Both the position numbers and the translations under genes were made by a program. Source: Patescibacteria group bacterium (GTDB taxonomy: Bacteria > Patescibacteriota > Microgenomatia > UBA1400 > PJMF01). Taken from it: a stretch of 56,483 nucleotides of DNA. The stretch is taken from positions 1-56,483 of the forward strand of contig JAHDXH010000005.1 in assembly GCA_023382875.1 (NCBI GenBank), read 5' to 3'. Shown here in pieces: positions 39,092 to 46,186 of the stretch. The notes beneath the pieces were generated by a model. It was not told where the DNA came from, ran no database searches, and was given only the letters and a program-made list of their open reading frames with translations. Within the stretch, counting starts at the first letter, position 1; every line of letters begins with the position of its first letter.

Positions 39092-39796
39092 CTAAACAAT
39101 AGGTGGATTAGGAGGAACTACATTGCTGTCAGTTTTAATTTGAACACTTGTTTTAGTTTTTTTATTAAATTTGTTAAGAAAAAATAAAACAATCGTAAGT
39201 AGCAAAATGATTAGAGGTATCGCAATTAAAATAGGACTAAATTGATTCTGACTTTCTCTAATATCTGCAGCGGGTGTACTTGCAACAGGAGTAGATCTGA
39301 TTTCTTTTTCAATTCCAACTTCGCCAAGATTTATAGCCATATCTTTAATCACAGCCACTGATTCAACGTTATAACTTTTTCCCCAAGTAGTTTTGTATAA
39401 GTCAAATGCAACAGGATTAAATATACGCTCACGCAACACTTTGGCAGAAAAATTTGGTCTTGCCGTAATTAATTCTAAACCATTCTCCAACCAGATGTGA
39501 ACAGTTTCTGGATCATTATTTTTACTGTCGTACCGATAAAAAGATTTATCAGGCTGGCCATATTGATTAACGTATGAACTAAAAATCACACTATCTTTGT
39601 TATGAGAAATTGACTTTAAAACCAATTTATCGTTTTCAAAATAATAATAGTCAGCATTGAGATCTAAATTTGCTCCGTATCTAAAAATTTCTCTTCCTTC
39701 TACAATTGATTTTTTTAGAGGCTCACCCAACTGTAAAATCACTTGAGATTTAGACTGTCCTAAAATAATTTTTTGCTGTGTATTTGTTTCTGTCAT
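39092..39796 (-). CDS. hypothetical membrane-anchored protein
   Basis: 234-aa ORF with C-terminal TM ILIAIPLIILLLTIVLFFL. Confidence 0.6.
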   Translation of the reverse strand: MTETNTQQKIILGQSKSQVILQLGEPLKKSIVEGREIFRYGANLDLNADYYYFENDKLVLKSISHNKDSVIFSSYVNQYGQPDKSFYRYDSKNNDPETVHIWLENGLELITARPNFSAKVLRERIFNPVAFDLYKTTWGKSYNVESVAVIKDMAINLGEVGIEKEIRSTPVASTPAADIRESQNQFSPILIAIPLIILLLTIVLFFLNKFNKKTKTSVQIKTDSNVVPPNPPIV

Positions 39797-39799
39797 ATT

Positions 39800-42412
39800 T
39801 TAGTTTTCAAAAAACATTGAGCAAAATTCTTTAACATTGGGCGTATCATCCAACATTTCTGGTCTTGCATTATATTCACTACATTCCCAAGCCAAGGATT
39901 CGACGGTTGAATCACGATAGCTGTCACCAACAGGGTTATCTTCAGTATAAAGAACAATCCCATCTAATTCTGCCACACCAATATACGCTTCCAAAATAGT
40001 GCAACTATTACCAGATGGACAGTATTCAGATTCAATCACCAAGCTATCTGCCGCATGAATCATTTCATGAGTTAAAACTGATTCACCAGAAAAAAGGAGA
40101 GATTCATCAGAAATAGCAATTTGACCCTCACCCCATGCACAACCACCCGTAATTGTGTTAGCTGGATCATCGGCAGTATCACAAATATCTTGTTGAGATG
40201 CAGCTGAATATAAATAGACATCAACATCAATTTGAGAGAATAGATCACTGTTTAGTGTGTTCAATTGTTCTTGAACCAATAAAATTTGAGCACTATTAAC
40301 TCCGCCAGCATAATCAAACTCAATATTAATATTTTGATGATCTTGTTCAATTTCGCTGACCAAAGCTATGTTTTCCAAATCTGCATTGGAACTAACCACA
40401 GGATAATCGTAACTCAAATATACAGTGTTCCAACTTCCAGAAGGCAGACACTCATAATGCAAGCCGTCACTGCCGACAATTACATCTCCACTGTTAACAG
40501 TGATTGAATTACCTTCTGCATTTTTACCGTTACATGTGGAACTTGAACCAGAAAAATCAGGTGCACCACTCACCACATTGTATCCACAGTATTGACCTTC
40601 AATACAAGCCAAAGTTCCCGTAGCCACAGCATTTTGATAAGTATTATTAGCTCCAATTAAGTTTGATAAATAGTCACAAGAAGATCCGCCAGTCATCTGA
40701 GCATTCGGACCCTCGCAATATTCTTGATATATCTCATTAGCTTGTTCGCTATTCGTAAGAATATTTGCAGATGCTTCATTGGTTGTTGTCGTGTTGGTTT
40801 GAACCATATTTTCAATAGTGGTCCACTTTTTTATATAAGCTTGTTCTGCTGCCACGTCATCAATAGCTGCCTGCAAATTTTGACAACTGGAAACAGAAGT
40901 GTAATTAGCACCACCGCCAACACAAAGCCTTTGGTAATTTTCTCTCGCAACCTCAAGCCTTATATTTCCACTATTTAAACCCTCTGTAATTGTATTTACA
41001 GTTGAAGTATTGCTGGCAACTCTTTCGTTCAGGGCATTCCAACCCGCAGCAGATGAAGTTTTTTCCTCGTTAATAGCTGCCTGCAAATTTTGACAAGCAG
41101 AGGAAGAGGTTTTCTGTGCAGCTGCTCCGACGCAGTATTGATCATATGAAATTTGAGCTGCCTCAACATCCATGACACCCGAATTAATCGCATTGACTGC
41201 ATAATTAACGCTATTAGTATTTGTCACTACAGTGTCATTAATTGCTGTCCACTTGGCAGTTTCTGCTTGGTTAACTAAAGCCTCAATCTCGTCCAACTCA
41301 GATTTTAAGGAATTACAAGCCGATGAGGAAGTTTGCTGAGCTTTGGCTCCCTGGCAGTATTCACGATAAACTGAACGAGCTTCGTTGAAATCCATGGTTC
41401 TTTCGTCTAGGCCACCTATGGCATAACTCACTTGCTCAGTATTATTAGTAACAGCGTCATTAATTGCTGTCCACTTGGCAGTTTCTGCTTGGTTAACTAA
41501 AGCCTCAATCTCGTCCAACTCAGATTTTAAGGAATTACAAGCCGATGAGGAAGTTTGCTGAGCTTTGGCTCCCTGGCAGTATTCACGATAAACTGAACGA
41601 GCTTCGTTGAAATCAACGCTTCGATCGTTCAATCCACCAAGTGCTGAATTTACTGCGCCGGTATTACCAACGACAGTGTCATTAAGTGCTGTATAGCGAA
41701 TATCTTGTTCCATGTTGGTTAACTTATTGCTCAAAGATTTACATCGATCAGTGTCAGTTGAATCGACATTGCTTCTACAGTATTGGTCATAAACAGCTCT
41801 AGCATCTTCATATTCAGCGTCACCTTCAGCTACATCTTTTAAGGTTGCGACTAACGCTAATGATGAAGTGTCATTTGGATCTGTAATCCCGTCATCAGGG
41901 TGGCTCCACAAACCATCTACACACTGCTGACGAATACCGCCGCGATTATCATATGCTCCTGCCGCGACCTCGGTCCCATCCCAATTACGACAGCCTCGTT
42001 GTGGCTTGTTGGCATTTTGCTCGGCAATAATTTGACTTGGATCAACATTGCCATCATCAGGAAGCGTCCATAATCCACCAACACACTGCTGACGAATACC
42101 GCCGCGATTATCATAAGAGCCCTCAGTAGCAGCCTCTCCATTCCAATAAGTACAACCTGAAGCTTGTTGGCGTACGTCCTGCTGCATTTGCGATAAAACC
42201 ATTGCCGAAACACCACCAACGAGTAGTAAGGCAAAAATAATCACACTAATCAAAAGTTTTAAGGATAAACGCCTTTTTGGTTTAAGAGTAAAGGAGGAAT
42301 TGCTAACCATAGTAGGGGAGGCTAATTTTGCCTGATTTCGGCTTTGCCACACTTGCTCGTTCTTTTTTTTGAACAAGCTGTTCACATTGGAAAAATGAAC
42401 AAAATTCGCCAT
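39800..42412 (-). CDS. repeat-containing surface protein with HExxH domain (paralog 1)
   Basis: N-terminal MANFVHFSNVNSLFKKKNEQVW + TM; ~six two-Cys repeats; VLTHEMIHAADS near C-terminus. Confidence 0.8.
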   Translation of the reverse strand: MANFVHFSNVNSLFKKKNEQVWQSRNQAKLASPTMVSNSSFTLKPKRRLSLKLLISVIIFALLLVGGVSAMVLSQMQQDVRQQASGCTYWNGEAATEGSYDNRGGIRQQCVGGLWTLPDDGNVDPSQIIAEQNANKPQRGCRNWDGTEVAAGAYDNRGGIRQQCVDGLWSHPDDGITDPNDTSSLALVATLKDVAEGDAEYEDARAVYDQYCRSNVDSTDTDRCKSLSNKLTNMEQDIRYTALNDTVVGNTGAVNSALGGLNDRSVDFNEARSVYREYCQGAKAQQTSSSACNSLKSELDEIEALVNQAETAKWTAINDAVTNNTEQVSYAIGGLDERTMDFNEARSVYREYCQGAKAQQTSSSACNSLKSELDEIEALVNQAETAKWTAINDTVVTNTNSVNYAVNAINSGVMDVEAAQISYDQYCVGAAAQKTSSSACQNLQAAINEEKTSSAAGWNALNERVASNTSTVNTITEGLNSGNIRLEVARENYQRLCVGGGANYTSVSSCQNLQAAIDDVAAEQAYIKKWTTIENMVQTNTTTTNEASANILTNSEQANEIYQEYCEGPNAQMTGGSSCDYLSNLIGANNTYQNAVATGTLACIEGQYCGYNVVSGAPDFSGSSSTCNGKNAEGNSITVNSGDVIVGSDGLHYECLPSGSWNTVYLSYDYPVVSSNADLENIALVSEIEQDHQNINIEFDYAGGVNSAQILLVQEQLNTLNSDLFSQIDVDVYLYSAASQQDICDTADDPANTITGGCAWGEGQIAISDESLLFSGESVLTHEMIHAADSLVIESEYCPSGNSCTILEAYIGVAELDGIVLYTEDNPVGDSYRDSTVESLAWECSEYNARPEMLDDTPNVKEFCSMFFEN
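41234..41392. repeat. 159-bp direct repeat unit, copy 1 (inside surface protein gene)
   Basis: By eye identical to 41456-41614; 222-bp period. Confidence 0.85.
41456..41614. repeat. 159-bp direct repeat unit, copy 2
   Basis: By eye identical to 41234-41392. Confidence 0.85.
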
Positions 42413-42476
42413 AGATACTAATCAGTATAATTCAGATATTGCTTTCAGCACAACAACGGCAAAATAGGAAAAAATA

Positions 42477-45400
42477 TTAAGGACTTACCACCCAAACCAC
42501 CTGATAGCCAGTTTCTGGATTTTCCACCAAATCTGAATTAACTTCAAGAGGAGCGGTGGCTAAAATTACACCTCCAGAACTCTCCATATTTCTAATTTCT
42601 TCATCACTCAAAATGGTTACATTAATGTTTGAATCTGGTGGAACACCCGCTAATGTTGATTGAAGATCGTCATTAACTTCAATATTAAGATTTAGTGAGG
42701 TATCGCTACTAGAATTGGTTGGGTTAGAAATCAGTTGATAAAAGTCCAATCTGTTTGGCAACGGCAGAGTGAAGTTAAAGTCATCTTGCTGTACATTTAT
42801 TCCCATCATCTGACTTTGTGGTAAATCACTCGAATTACCATTCAAAGGTATATTTTCGTTTAATCTCGCTTGCTCGTTTGATAAAGAAACATCAAATGAT
42901 GCATCGGCAAAATTATCATAATCATAACTTCTAACTACCTGCCCGAAACTAACCATGCGATCAGGGGTTAAATTTTCACCACTTTCACTCCTTACTGTAA
43001 TATTGTAATTATAATTACTTGGTTTATAAAAGTTCCCTTCCTGCATGGTGCTCGTAATACCCTGAGCATTAGAAATGGCAACTTCAAAAGCTGACACATT
43101 TGTCAAACCAGCTGATGGATTATTCATAATGTCATCACCCCCAAAATTAGACGAACTCAGATTATTCCAACCAGATAAATATGTTGATGCGGGCACAACA
43201 TCACCACTTGAATTCATAACCACACTATCGTCAGTAATAAACGTTTCGTAATAATCACTTGGACCCAAGACATGAAGTTCTTCATGAATCAAGCCTGTGG
43301 CAACGGGCACGTTGTAAACCGAGTTACCAATATTAACGGGCTGAACTGTTAAGCCATTGACCATGGGGTCATTATCAAAGAAAAGCCAGTTCATATTTGG
43401 AGGCCAAGGGACTTCTTCACCACCAATCACCGCAGTTGGAATATTGGCTATACCAGACTTTGGTTGATGAAGAATTTGCTGATTAATTAGCTTGTCAGGA
43501 ACAACCACAATTCTAAGATTAATCGTAGATGGGACCAAAATTCCCCTTGCTCTAGCATCCTCCAGATTTTGAGTCATTGGATAAACATAAGTTAAATATT
43601 CCAAACCTACCAAAGACATATTTTCCAGACCATCGGAACAGGTACTACATTGTATTTGAACTCCATTTCTGTAGTCACTTTCACTCACCACAATTACACC
43701 ATTAAAATAATTGGCATTCATACCATCTCTTGCTTCGTTATATGCAGCAATAAACTCTGGATCATCAAAGTTATGACCTCCTGCTCTGTAATTTTCCTGC
43801 CATTGAGCATAAAGTTCTGGATTTGATTGCCACAACTCTGCAGCTACTTCTTCCCATGTATCAGCCTCAATTACAGTAGTATTTTCTCTAGCAATTTCAT
43901 CAAATTCCTCCAAACTATCTGCGCTCGCAAATGAATCATTCAAGCTAATTACTGAATCATTATTTCTAAGCTCTTCCACATTACTTGATCCATCAAGTAA
44001 TGGCCTAACCCAATTAGTTGGATTAATCACCAAATTTGTATTGTTATCATTATTTCCAAATAGATCTATACCAAAAGCTGAACCAACCTTGTCCAAAAAA
44101 GTCACCACCAAATTTTCTTTAGGTTGGTGTTTTTCCAATTCAGCATTTAAATTAGCGCACAAAACTGGAGATACTACAGCTCCAGTACAATATTGGTTGT
44201 AAGTATTTTGTGCTTCATCCAGAGTAATATCGCCACGGCTCAATAAAGATTGAGCAATTAAAACATCTCGGTTATTCATTCCAATTACCGTAGTTGGATT
44301 AACAATTTCATTGATTGGCTGAAGGACGTTATTAACAACGGTTTTACCAAGATTAATAATAAGCGCTAGGGGATTATCAGATGGATTTAAGACATATACA
44401 CCATCTTCCATTGAGCAACTATCAACCGCCGAGCTTTGTTGAGAAGCTTTATAGCAGTCAGCTAGTGTTTTATAACCGCCACCTTGACCTGCTGTGCGGT
44501 TGCATATAGATGATGACGCTTGTTCGACCGTTTGATCATCACAAGGATCTTCGAAAACCCTACCTCCATCGCCATCGTTAGCAATCTGCTCCTCTACAAC
44601 TTCGATTCGAGCTGATAAGCGACTACACATGGATGTAGATGTTTGTTGAGCTGTTGAACCAACACAGTAATCATCATAAACCCTTTGCGCATTTTCCAAG
44701 CTGCTAGACTCATCGCTAATTTGTGTAATGGCAGAACTAACCACACTGTTATTAACAGCCACAGCTTCTTCCAAAGCTTGCCAACGAACACGATTAGCTT
44801 CGTCACGCATTGCCTGAGTCAAACTTTCACAAGCACTGGTGGACGTGGTTCCATAATTAGCGCCAGCTGTTTCTGGGTTGCAGTAAGAATTGTAAACATC
44901 ATTGGCTTGAGCGTAGTCAAGATTTGATTGACCTAAAGCCATAGTTGTTTGAGAAACTTCATTAGTATTGGCATTTACCTTATCTTCCAAAGCTTGCCAA
45001 CGAACACGATTAGCTTCGTCACGCATTGCTGATTCCAAAGAATTACAGGCAGATGTAGAAGTATAGTTATAATTTGAACCTGCAGTTGATTGATTACAAA
45101 AACTATTAAAGGTTGCGCTGGCTGCAGCATAATCAATGCTCTGACCCTGCAAGCCGGTGACAGCTGCTGTCACAGCGTTCGTATTACCACTAACCTTTTC
45201 ATCCATAGCTTGCCAACGCATTTCATTTGCTTCCTCACGCAAAGAACTATCTAAAGAGCTACAAACAGATTTGTACTCATCCAACGGATTTTCACGACAG
45301 TGCTCATTGTAAACAGCTGAAGCTTGAGAATAATAATCCTTCCTTCATCCAATCCACCAATGGCTCTAGAAATTTCGTCGCGACCTTCTTGAACTGGATT

Positions 45401-46186
45401 AGACCACAATCCACCTTCGCAATGGCCAGATCCAGATGGACCTTCAACATCGCAAACCCATCGACCTTCATTATTACAATTACTACCCTCAACATATTTT
45501 CCGCACTGTCTGGTGCCGATATTGGCACTACAGGTAGGATCACAGCGACCATTTGTACACATCATTAGCCCTTCGCAACATTTTTCACCCACACCTGGTC
45601 TTGTGCCATTACCACCACAGCCAGTCACAGCGCATTCTTGGTCAATCCAGCGATTGCAAGTTTGAGTTGCTTTGCGGCAACCCGCAATACACCCACCGCA
45701 ATAAATCTCATCGCCCGCGCAGGCAGAGCCACCCCCACCAGAGGATGAGGAATTTTGTGCTCCAATTCCAGTAGTCCCACTATTAGTTAAATTATTAGTT
45801 GAACTATCTGCAGTATTGTTGGTGCCTGGATTTGACCAATAACCATTTTTACAAACTTGAATCACACCACCTCGATTATCTGATGCACCTTCAACCGCAG
45901 GCTCACCATTCCAATAAGTACATCCTGTAGCGCGCTGCCTAACATCTTGCTGAATCTGAGACAAAACCATAGCCGAGGCACCTCCGACCAACAAAAGAAC
46001 AAAAACAATGATGCCCATTAAAACTCTTAATGAGAAACGCTTTTTGGGCTTGATTAATGACAAAGGAACGGAGTTATCGGATAAAGTTGGCGAGGCTAAT
46101 TTTGCCTGATTGCGGCTCTGCCACACTTGCTCGTTCTTTTTTTTGAACAAGCTGTTCACGTTAGAAAAATGAACAAAATTAGCCAT
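42477..46186 (-). pseudogene. repeat-containing surface protein with metzincin-like HExxHxxGxxD motif (paralog 2), frameshifted near 45345
   Basis: ORFs 45251..46186 and 42477..45284 are in different frames; the homologous sequence continues (GGLDEGR|DYYSQASAVYNEHCRENPLDEYK) across the break. Confidence 0.7.

Follow-up and report, generated by a model that had tools for sequence, protein, structure and literature searches.

Patescibacteria are thought to live on other bacteria. Type IV secretion genes have been reported to be essential for epibiotic growth in one strain tested (PMC12102498), and the patescibacterial type IV secretion system (T4SS) is one of the described systems with which the locus analysed here can be compared. 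A second is the set of metalloproteases comprising PPEP-1/Zmp1, PPEP-2, PPEP-3 and M34 (lethal factor), where the HExxH motif is combined with a third zinc ligand, a Glu, on a later helix. The zinc site of PPEP-3 consists of His153, His157 and Glu197, with Glu154 as the base, and its catalytic Tyr190 lies seven residues before Glu197 (PMC12828418).

The product of gene A shows the same HExxH and Glu arrangement; it differs from PPEP/M34 in that it appears to be membrane-linked through a long Cys-rich and repeat stalk, has an adjacent partner gene, and is related to these proteases remotely in sequence. Most relatives of this protease-partner pair stand beside virB4 and prgI, near dnaA/dnaN, as in the patescibacterial T4SS (PMC12102498), whereas the copy in our window stands outside such a cluster. 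The account that we consider the probable one, short of firmly so, is that gene A encodes a surface-displayed metalloprotease with P0004 as its dedicated partner, that the pair is an offshoot of the T4SS-cluster pair, and that gene B is a frameshifted companion.

Locus and predicted zinc-site domain of gene A

The window, that is, the whole 56,483-nucleotide stretch that was analysed, is contig C5 of genome G000 (1.0 Mb, 97% complete). Searches described below as covering the family, the class and the phylum comprised 42, 329 and 380 genomes, respectively. The features are as follows.

39092..39796 (-): P0004 (234 aa), the candidate partner gene, with a BamE/SmpA (beta-lactamase-inhibitor)-like domain and a C-terminal TM
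39800..42412 (-): gene A (P0001, 870 aa), with a putative N-terminal export/anchor module, two Cys/W modules, six Cys-pair repeats and a predicted C-terminal gluzincin domain
39803..40339 (-): predicted gluzincin domain of gene A, with the conserved Glu838 (profile A6, E 9e-26, P0001 itself being a row of A6)
about 40055-40069 (-): HExxH of gene A (P0001 782-786)
40628..41863 (-): six Cys-pair helical repeats of gene A (profile A4, E 3e-17 to 1e-30)
42143..42286 (-): N-terminal module of gene A, with a Lys-rich tail, TM and QDVRQQAS (profile A1, E 2.7e-23)
42477..45344 (-): downstream part of gene B (P0003, 955 open codons), with five repeats and the second HExxH domain
42480..44024 (-): C-terminal domain of gene B, with HEELHxxGxxD (P0003 687-697) and DDIM (M740); 36% identity over 515 aa to P0005 of genome G655
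44115..45335 (-): five Cys-pair repeats of gene B, as 44115-44285 and 44580-45335 (profile A4)
45251..46186 (-): upstream part of gene B (P0002, 311 aa), with the start, the N-terminal module and the Cys-rich region, in a frame different from that of P0003
45325..45345 (-): frameshift site of gene B, where repeat homology switches frame
45911..46051 (-): N-terminal module of gene B, with TM and QDVRQRAT (profile A1, E 1.5e-22)

Gene A is a single intact frame, and the start of P0004 lies 3 nt past its stop codon; the next genes among the flanking ORFs are miaA-like and corA-like. The sequence-only reading had described two neighbouring genes forming a new paralogous family. This is accurate for gene A, while gene B, which spans 46186 to 42477, is not one open frame. 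The two genes are indeed paralogous, but only over the N-terminus and the repeats; their C-terminal regions differ and carry one HExxH each, as had been noted, and no similarity was seen between the two HExxH domains. The interval given in that reading, from 39800, covers genes A and B and leaves out P0004, the most informative neighbour. Sequence searches of Pfam, NCBIfam, PHROGs and the PDB with the whole proteins yielded no convincing domain.

For the C-terminal domain of gene A, no close homolog emerged from pairwise searches of the family and the class. P0006 of G655, a genome from another family of the same class, contains the same HExxH and C-x-SG-x-SC-xx-LEAY block as P0001, although the pairwise match between the two is weak (E 5e-5). 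Alignment of 15 relatives (A6) revealed four invariant positions, namely H, E, H and a downstream Glu, and the domain therefore conforms to the gluzincin pattern. This Glu, E838, falls inside predicted helix 239-259 of an AlphaFold model of moderate quality (mean pLDDT 70, core 80-92). Comparison of profile A6 with the PDB returned lethal factor (M34; 2e-6) and PPEP/Zmp1 (2e-4), and the top Foldseek matches of the model were PPEP-2 (prob 0.99), PPEP-3 (0.96) and LF (0.92), within a top-match range of 0.80-0.99, with E-values of about 0.01-0.1 (best 0.014) and TM-scores of about 0.4-0.55. The zinc-site residues match the layout of the PPEP-3 site; P0001 also has a Tyr six residues before E838, which is not constant among its relatives. 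By profile and predicted fold, the C-terminal domain of gene A is a predicted gluzincin, remotely related to the Pro-Pro endopeptidases (M34-like).

The N-terminal module

The near-identical N-terminus that had been noticed for genes A and B is also seen at the DNA level: 129 nt around the start codon, part of the leader included, are 95% identical, and the next matched block of 186 nt is 71% identical, which points to a recent exchange between the two genes. As a mark of this pair, the N-terminus did not hold up. Profile A1 located the module in 38 of the 42 family genomes, at most eight times per genome and six times in that of the host; it heads otherwise different exported proteins. When 52 genomes were searched with P0001, 16 contained matches, and all of those outside G000 were limited to the N-terminal region. 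Common to the aligned N-termini are a Lys-rich tail, a TM in which Gly and Leu are conserved, and, after it, Q-D-x-R-Q-Q-A. Across the phylum, the module profile matched 62 of 380 genomes, many of the matches being weak and covering the TM only, and a contig search with a narrower N-terminal profile recovered MAGs whose labels are Candidatus Paceibacterota, Pacebacteria or Patescibacteria. By these labels, the bacterium, which is tiny and probably host-dependent, belongs to the Candidate Phyla Radiation. No Pfam or NCBIfam model corresponds to the module, which gave weak TM-type matches at most, and no description of the motif was found in the literature, itself weak evidence. The module is probably a lineage-wide, general export/anchor signal.

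The mature parts of the module proteins fall into 15 groups at E 1e-5, the largest of which has 43 members, linked, we think, largely via low-complexity and Cys-rich linkers. Among the module proteins are one that is a cohesin protein and one whose end is dockerin-like. A QDxRQQA-type N-terminus also begins three giant open frames, of 9102 (G024:C30:30995, L089), 7918 (G059:C25, L091) and 5485 codons (G029:C6, L090); the 7918-codon frame (L188) has HExxH sites and is matched weakly by the gluzincin profile. Elsewhere in G000 (C12, L007), two module proteins (450 and 499 aa) are clustered with a third protein that has a similar C-terminal signal, and a nearby 781-aa ATPase-like gene looks, by eye, like a T4SS coupling protein. 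A very uniform C-terminal LPx[ST]G[SP]ED....K...GLG.LG.G.LLLL, without a positive tail, was observed at L014, L016, L024, L025 and other loci.

YSIRK and other lineage-specific signal-peptide motifs occur on surface proteins, and these are likewise short motifs common to many unlike exported proteins; QDxRQQA differs from them in that it stands after the TM, and the tail ahead of the TM is often long. It is quite possible, though we lean against it, that the motif marks a cleaved leader, processed after QQA, so that the proteins are released, a view that departs from ours in the matter of anchoring only. The motif positions Q, D, R, Q, Q and A have an information content of 3.3-4.3 bits, the values for Q and A being inflated by a row-anchoring pattern that requires them (both are also invariant in alignment A1), and the content falls to a background of ~0.8 two residues past the invariant Ala (67 proteins), as cleavage there would predict. 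A cleaved N-terminus would also fit the LPxTG-like signal and TM that end 16 of 43 complete module proteins, and a sortase is present in 42 of 42 family genomes. Type I signal peptidase, however, prefers a small residue at -3, and this is missing for cleavage after QQA; furthermore, neither gene A nor gene B encodes another anchor. Anchoring by the uncleaved module is the reading retained here. The proposal that A and B are modular cell-surface proteins is supported at the sequence level by a single N-terminal TM with a lineage-wide motif in each, Cys residues that are paired throughout, and no other TM.

The proposed partner gene and the type IV secretion cluster

In G655, P0006 is followed, as in the window, by a homolog of P0004 (P0007; 28% identity, E 1e-24). 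Searching the class with a profile built from P0004 and P0007 yielded 13 more loci, and at all 13, the loci inspected first, an HExxH gene adjoins the P0004-like gene upstream. An improved partner profile gave strong matches (E up to 1.4e-15) in 33 of the 329 class genomes. Among 15 new loci found with it, a protease domain is adjacent in 13 (in one case on the opposite strand); of the remaining two, one is cut by a contig end and one lacks the protease domain, which gives 13 of 14 testable loci. Conversely, loci found by the protease profile have the partner in eight of ten cases, and two are without it. Where measured, the gaps between protease and partner are at most 27 nt, and the genes often overlap.

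The BamE/SmpA and BLIP fold is the nearest known likeness of the P0004-like family, and it is weak by profile: three of 21 members matched Pfam BamE (best E 0.034), and the PDB search returned a putative BLIP (E 0.013). Unlike these, P0004 is anchored by a TM, is paired with a protease gene and has no outer-membrane setting. Because of this weak likeness to BLIP/BamE, an inhibitor is our first guess for P0004, about evenly balanced against a role in folding or assembly. The partners in the window, G655, G009 and G053 have a C-terminal TM; those of G009 and G053 also have an N-terminal signal-like stretch, and P0004 has no visible signal peptide, which counts against a firm placing of its domain outside the membrane.

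A VirB4 homolog and PrgI-like genes are present in the same cluster at 17 of 19 T4SS-type loci, the other two being on truncated contigs; TraG/VirB4 and PrgI were confirmed by Pfam in the cases tested. Judged from ORFs, the T4SS-type pair lies near dnaA/dnaN/rnpA, in agreement with the published patescibacterial T4SS (PMC12102498). The host genome itself has a T4SS-type copy of the pair on C22, linked to virB4/prgI. Among the flanking ORFs seen, no such link exists for the window pair, and the copies in the window, G655, G009 and G053 have no T4SS cluster around them; the G009 protease (P0008) starts with QDIRQQAS. No earlier description of a protease-partner pair within the patescibacterial T4SS cluster was found, and neither 'metallo' nor 'BamE' occurs in the main text of PMC12102498.

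This linkage bears on a reading in which P0004-like proteins are VirB8-like channel parts and the HExxH protein is a VirB6/VirB1-like membrane part, with no inhibition involved. Such a role would fit the TM segments that precede the protease domain in most full-length T4SS-type HExxH proteins, the single N-terminal TM of their partners, and a survey in which VirB6 was seldom found in Microgenomatia and VirB8 was almost confined to a single class, ABY1 (PMC12102498). The four loci that keep the pair outside a secretion cluster nevertheless tie the partner to the protease domain and not to the channel, and we regard a channel role as rather unlikely. Our best reading is that gene A would be a derived, surface-displayed version of the T4SS-cluster protease-partner pair.

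Repeats, gene B and proposed mechanism

The six and five repeats counted earlier for genes A and B were recovered by the profile (11 copies, E 1e-10 to 1e-30), each with two Cys. The GCxxW..G..DNRGG..Q.C..G.W modules were confirmed as well, two in gene A and one in gene B. In the 42 family genomes, the repeat profile found nothing else with an E-value below 0.07, so that genes A and B are the only carriers. Pfam likewise holds no fitting family for the repeats, in keeping with the sequence-only reading: Cdc6_C was grazed by one of six repeats, partially and just at the cut-off (25.2 vs 25.1 bits), which we take as a chance or composition effect, and an Occludin_ELL match is also ascribed to composition. 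In a weak AlphaFold model of P0003 (pLDDT 43), each repeat consists of one long helix with short helices after it. Within gene A, two 222-nt repeat units (41199-41642 of the window) are 88% identical in DNA, and the number of repeats has therefore changed recently. The repeats are putative lineage-specific spacers, and the least conserved part of genes A and B. That the two proteins act as adhesins, binding a host cell through their repeats, with accessory or inactive HExxH domains, is distinctly improbable: repeat expansion and restriction to one genome do look like fast-evolving surface parts, yet the G655 relatives of both C-terminal domains lack the repeats and keep the zinc-site residues.

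The 515-residue C-terminal region of gene B was matched in one other genome among the 329 of the class, G655 (36% identity, E 2e-85), which also carries the gene-A-type pair closest to that of the window. The HExxH, an Asp after it and a DDIM block are conserved between the two, and HExxH conservation, on which the sequence-only reading had depended, is thus seen in relatives of both C-terminal domains. The domain resembles metzincins in its motifs: HEELHVLGPSD of P0003 fits HExxHxxGxxH/D, P0005 of G655 has Thr in place of Gly, and the conserved DDIM, 49 residues downstream, is a candidate Met-turn. A PDB profile search with this domain gave no match. In G655, the paralogs L121 and L120 have a common N-terminus (SFDIRQRAQ) and Cys-rich region but differ in their HExxH domains, an arrangement that mirrors the one in the window.

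The break in gene B, located by the change of frame in the repeat homology, lies near 45330-45345. Stop codons are absent from all 955 codons of gene B past the break, and the break is therefore recent or an assembly error; gene B is a frameshifted gene, either a recent pseudogene or the product of such an error. A programmed -1 shift was considered, but no canonical slippery heptamer was seen in phase, and mutation or assembly error is preferred.

In the mechanism that we propose, the N-terminal module (positive tail, TM and QDxRQQA) would route the gene A protein and anchor it, leaving it exposed on the outside of the cell membrane, with the Cys-clamped helical repeats serving as a stalk. 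The protease domain, with its predicted Pro-Pro-endopeptidase (M34-like) fold and complete predicted zinc site (H782, E783, H786 and E838), would then act outside the membrane, where P0004 most likely binds it and either restrains it or aids its folding. Gene B, now frameshifted, would have accompanied gene A, combining the same delivery parts with another HExxH domain.

The export motif, if confirmed, would allow the surface proteins of a whole uncultured lineage to be listed from sequence. The conserved protease-partner pair in the T4SS cluster, in turn, is a testable candidate for how Patescibacteria may open or modify an envelope.
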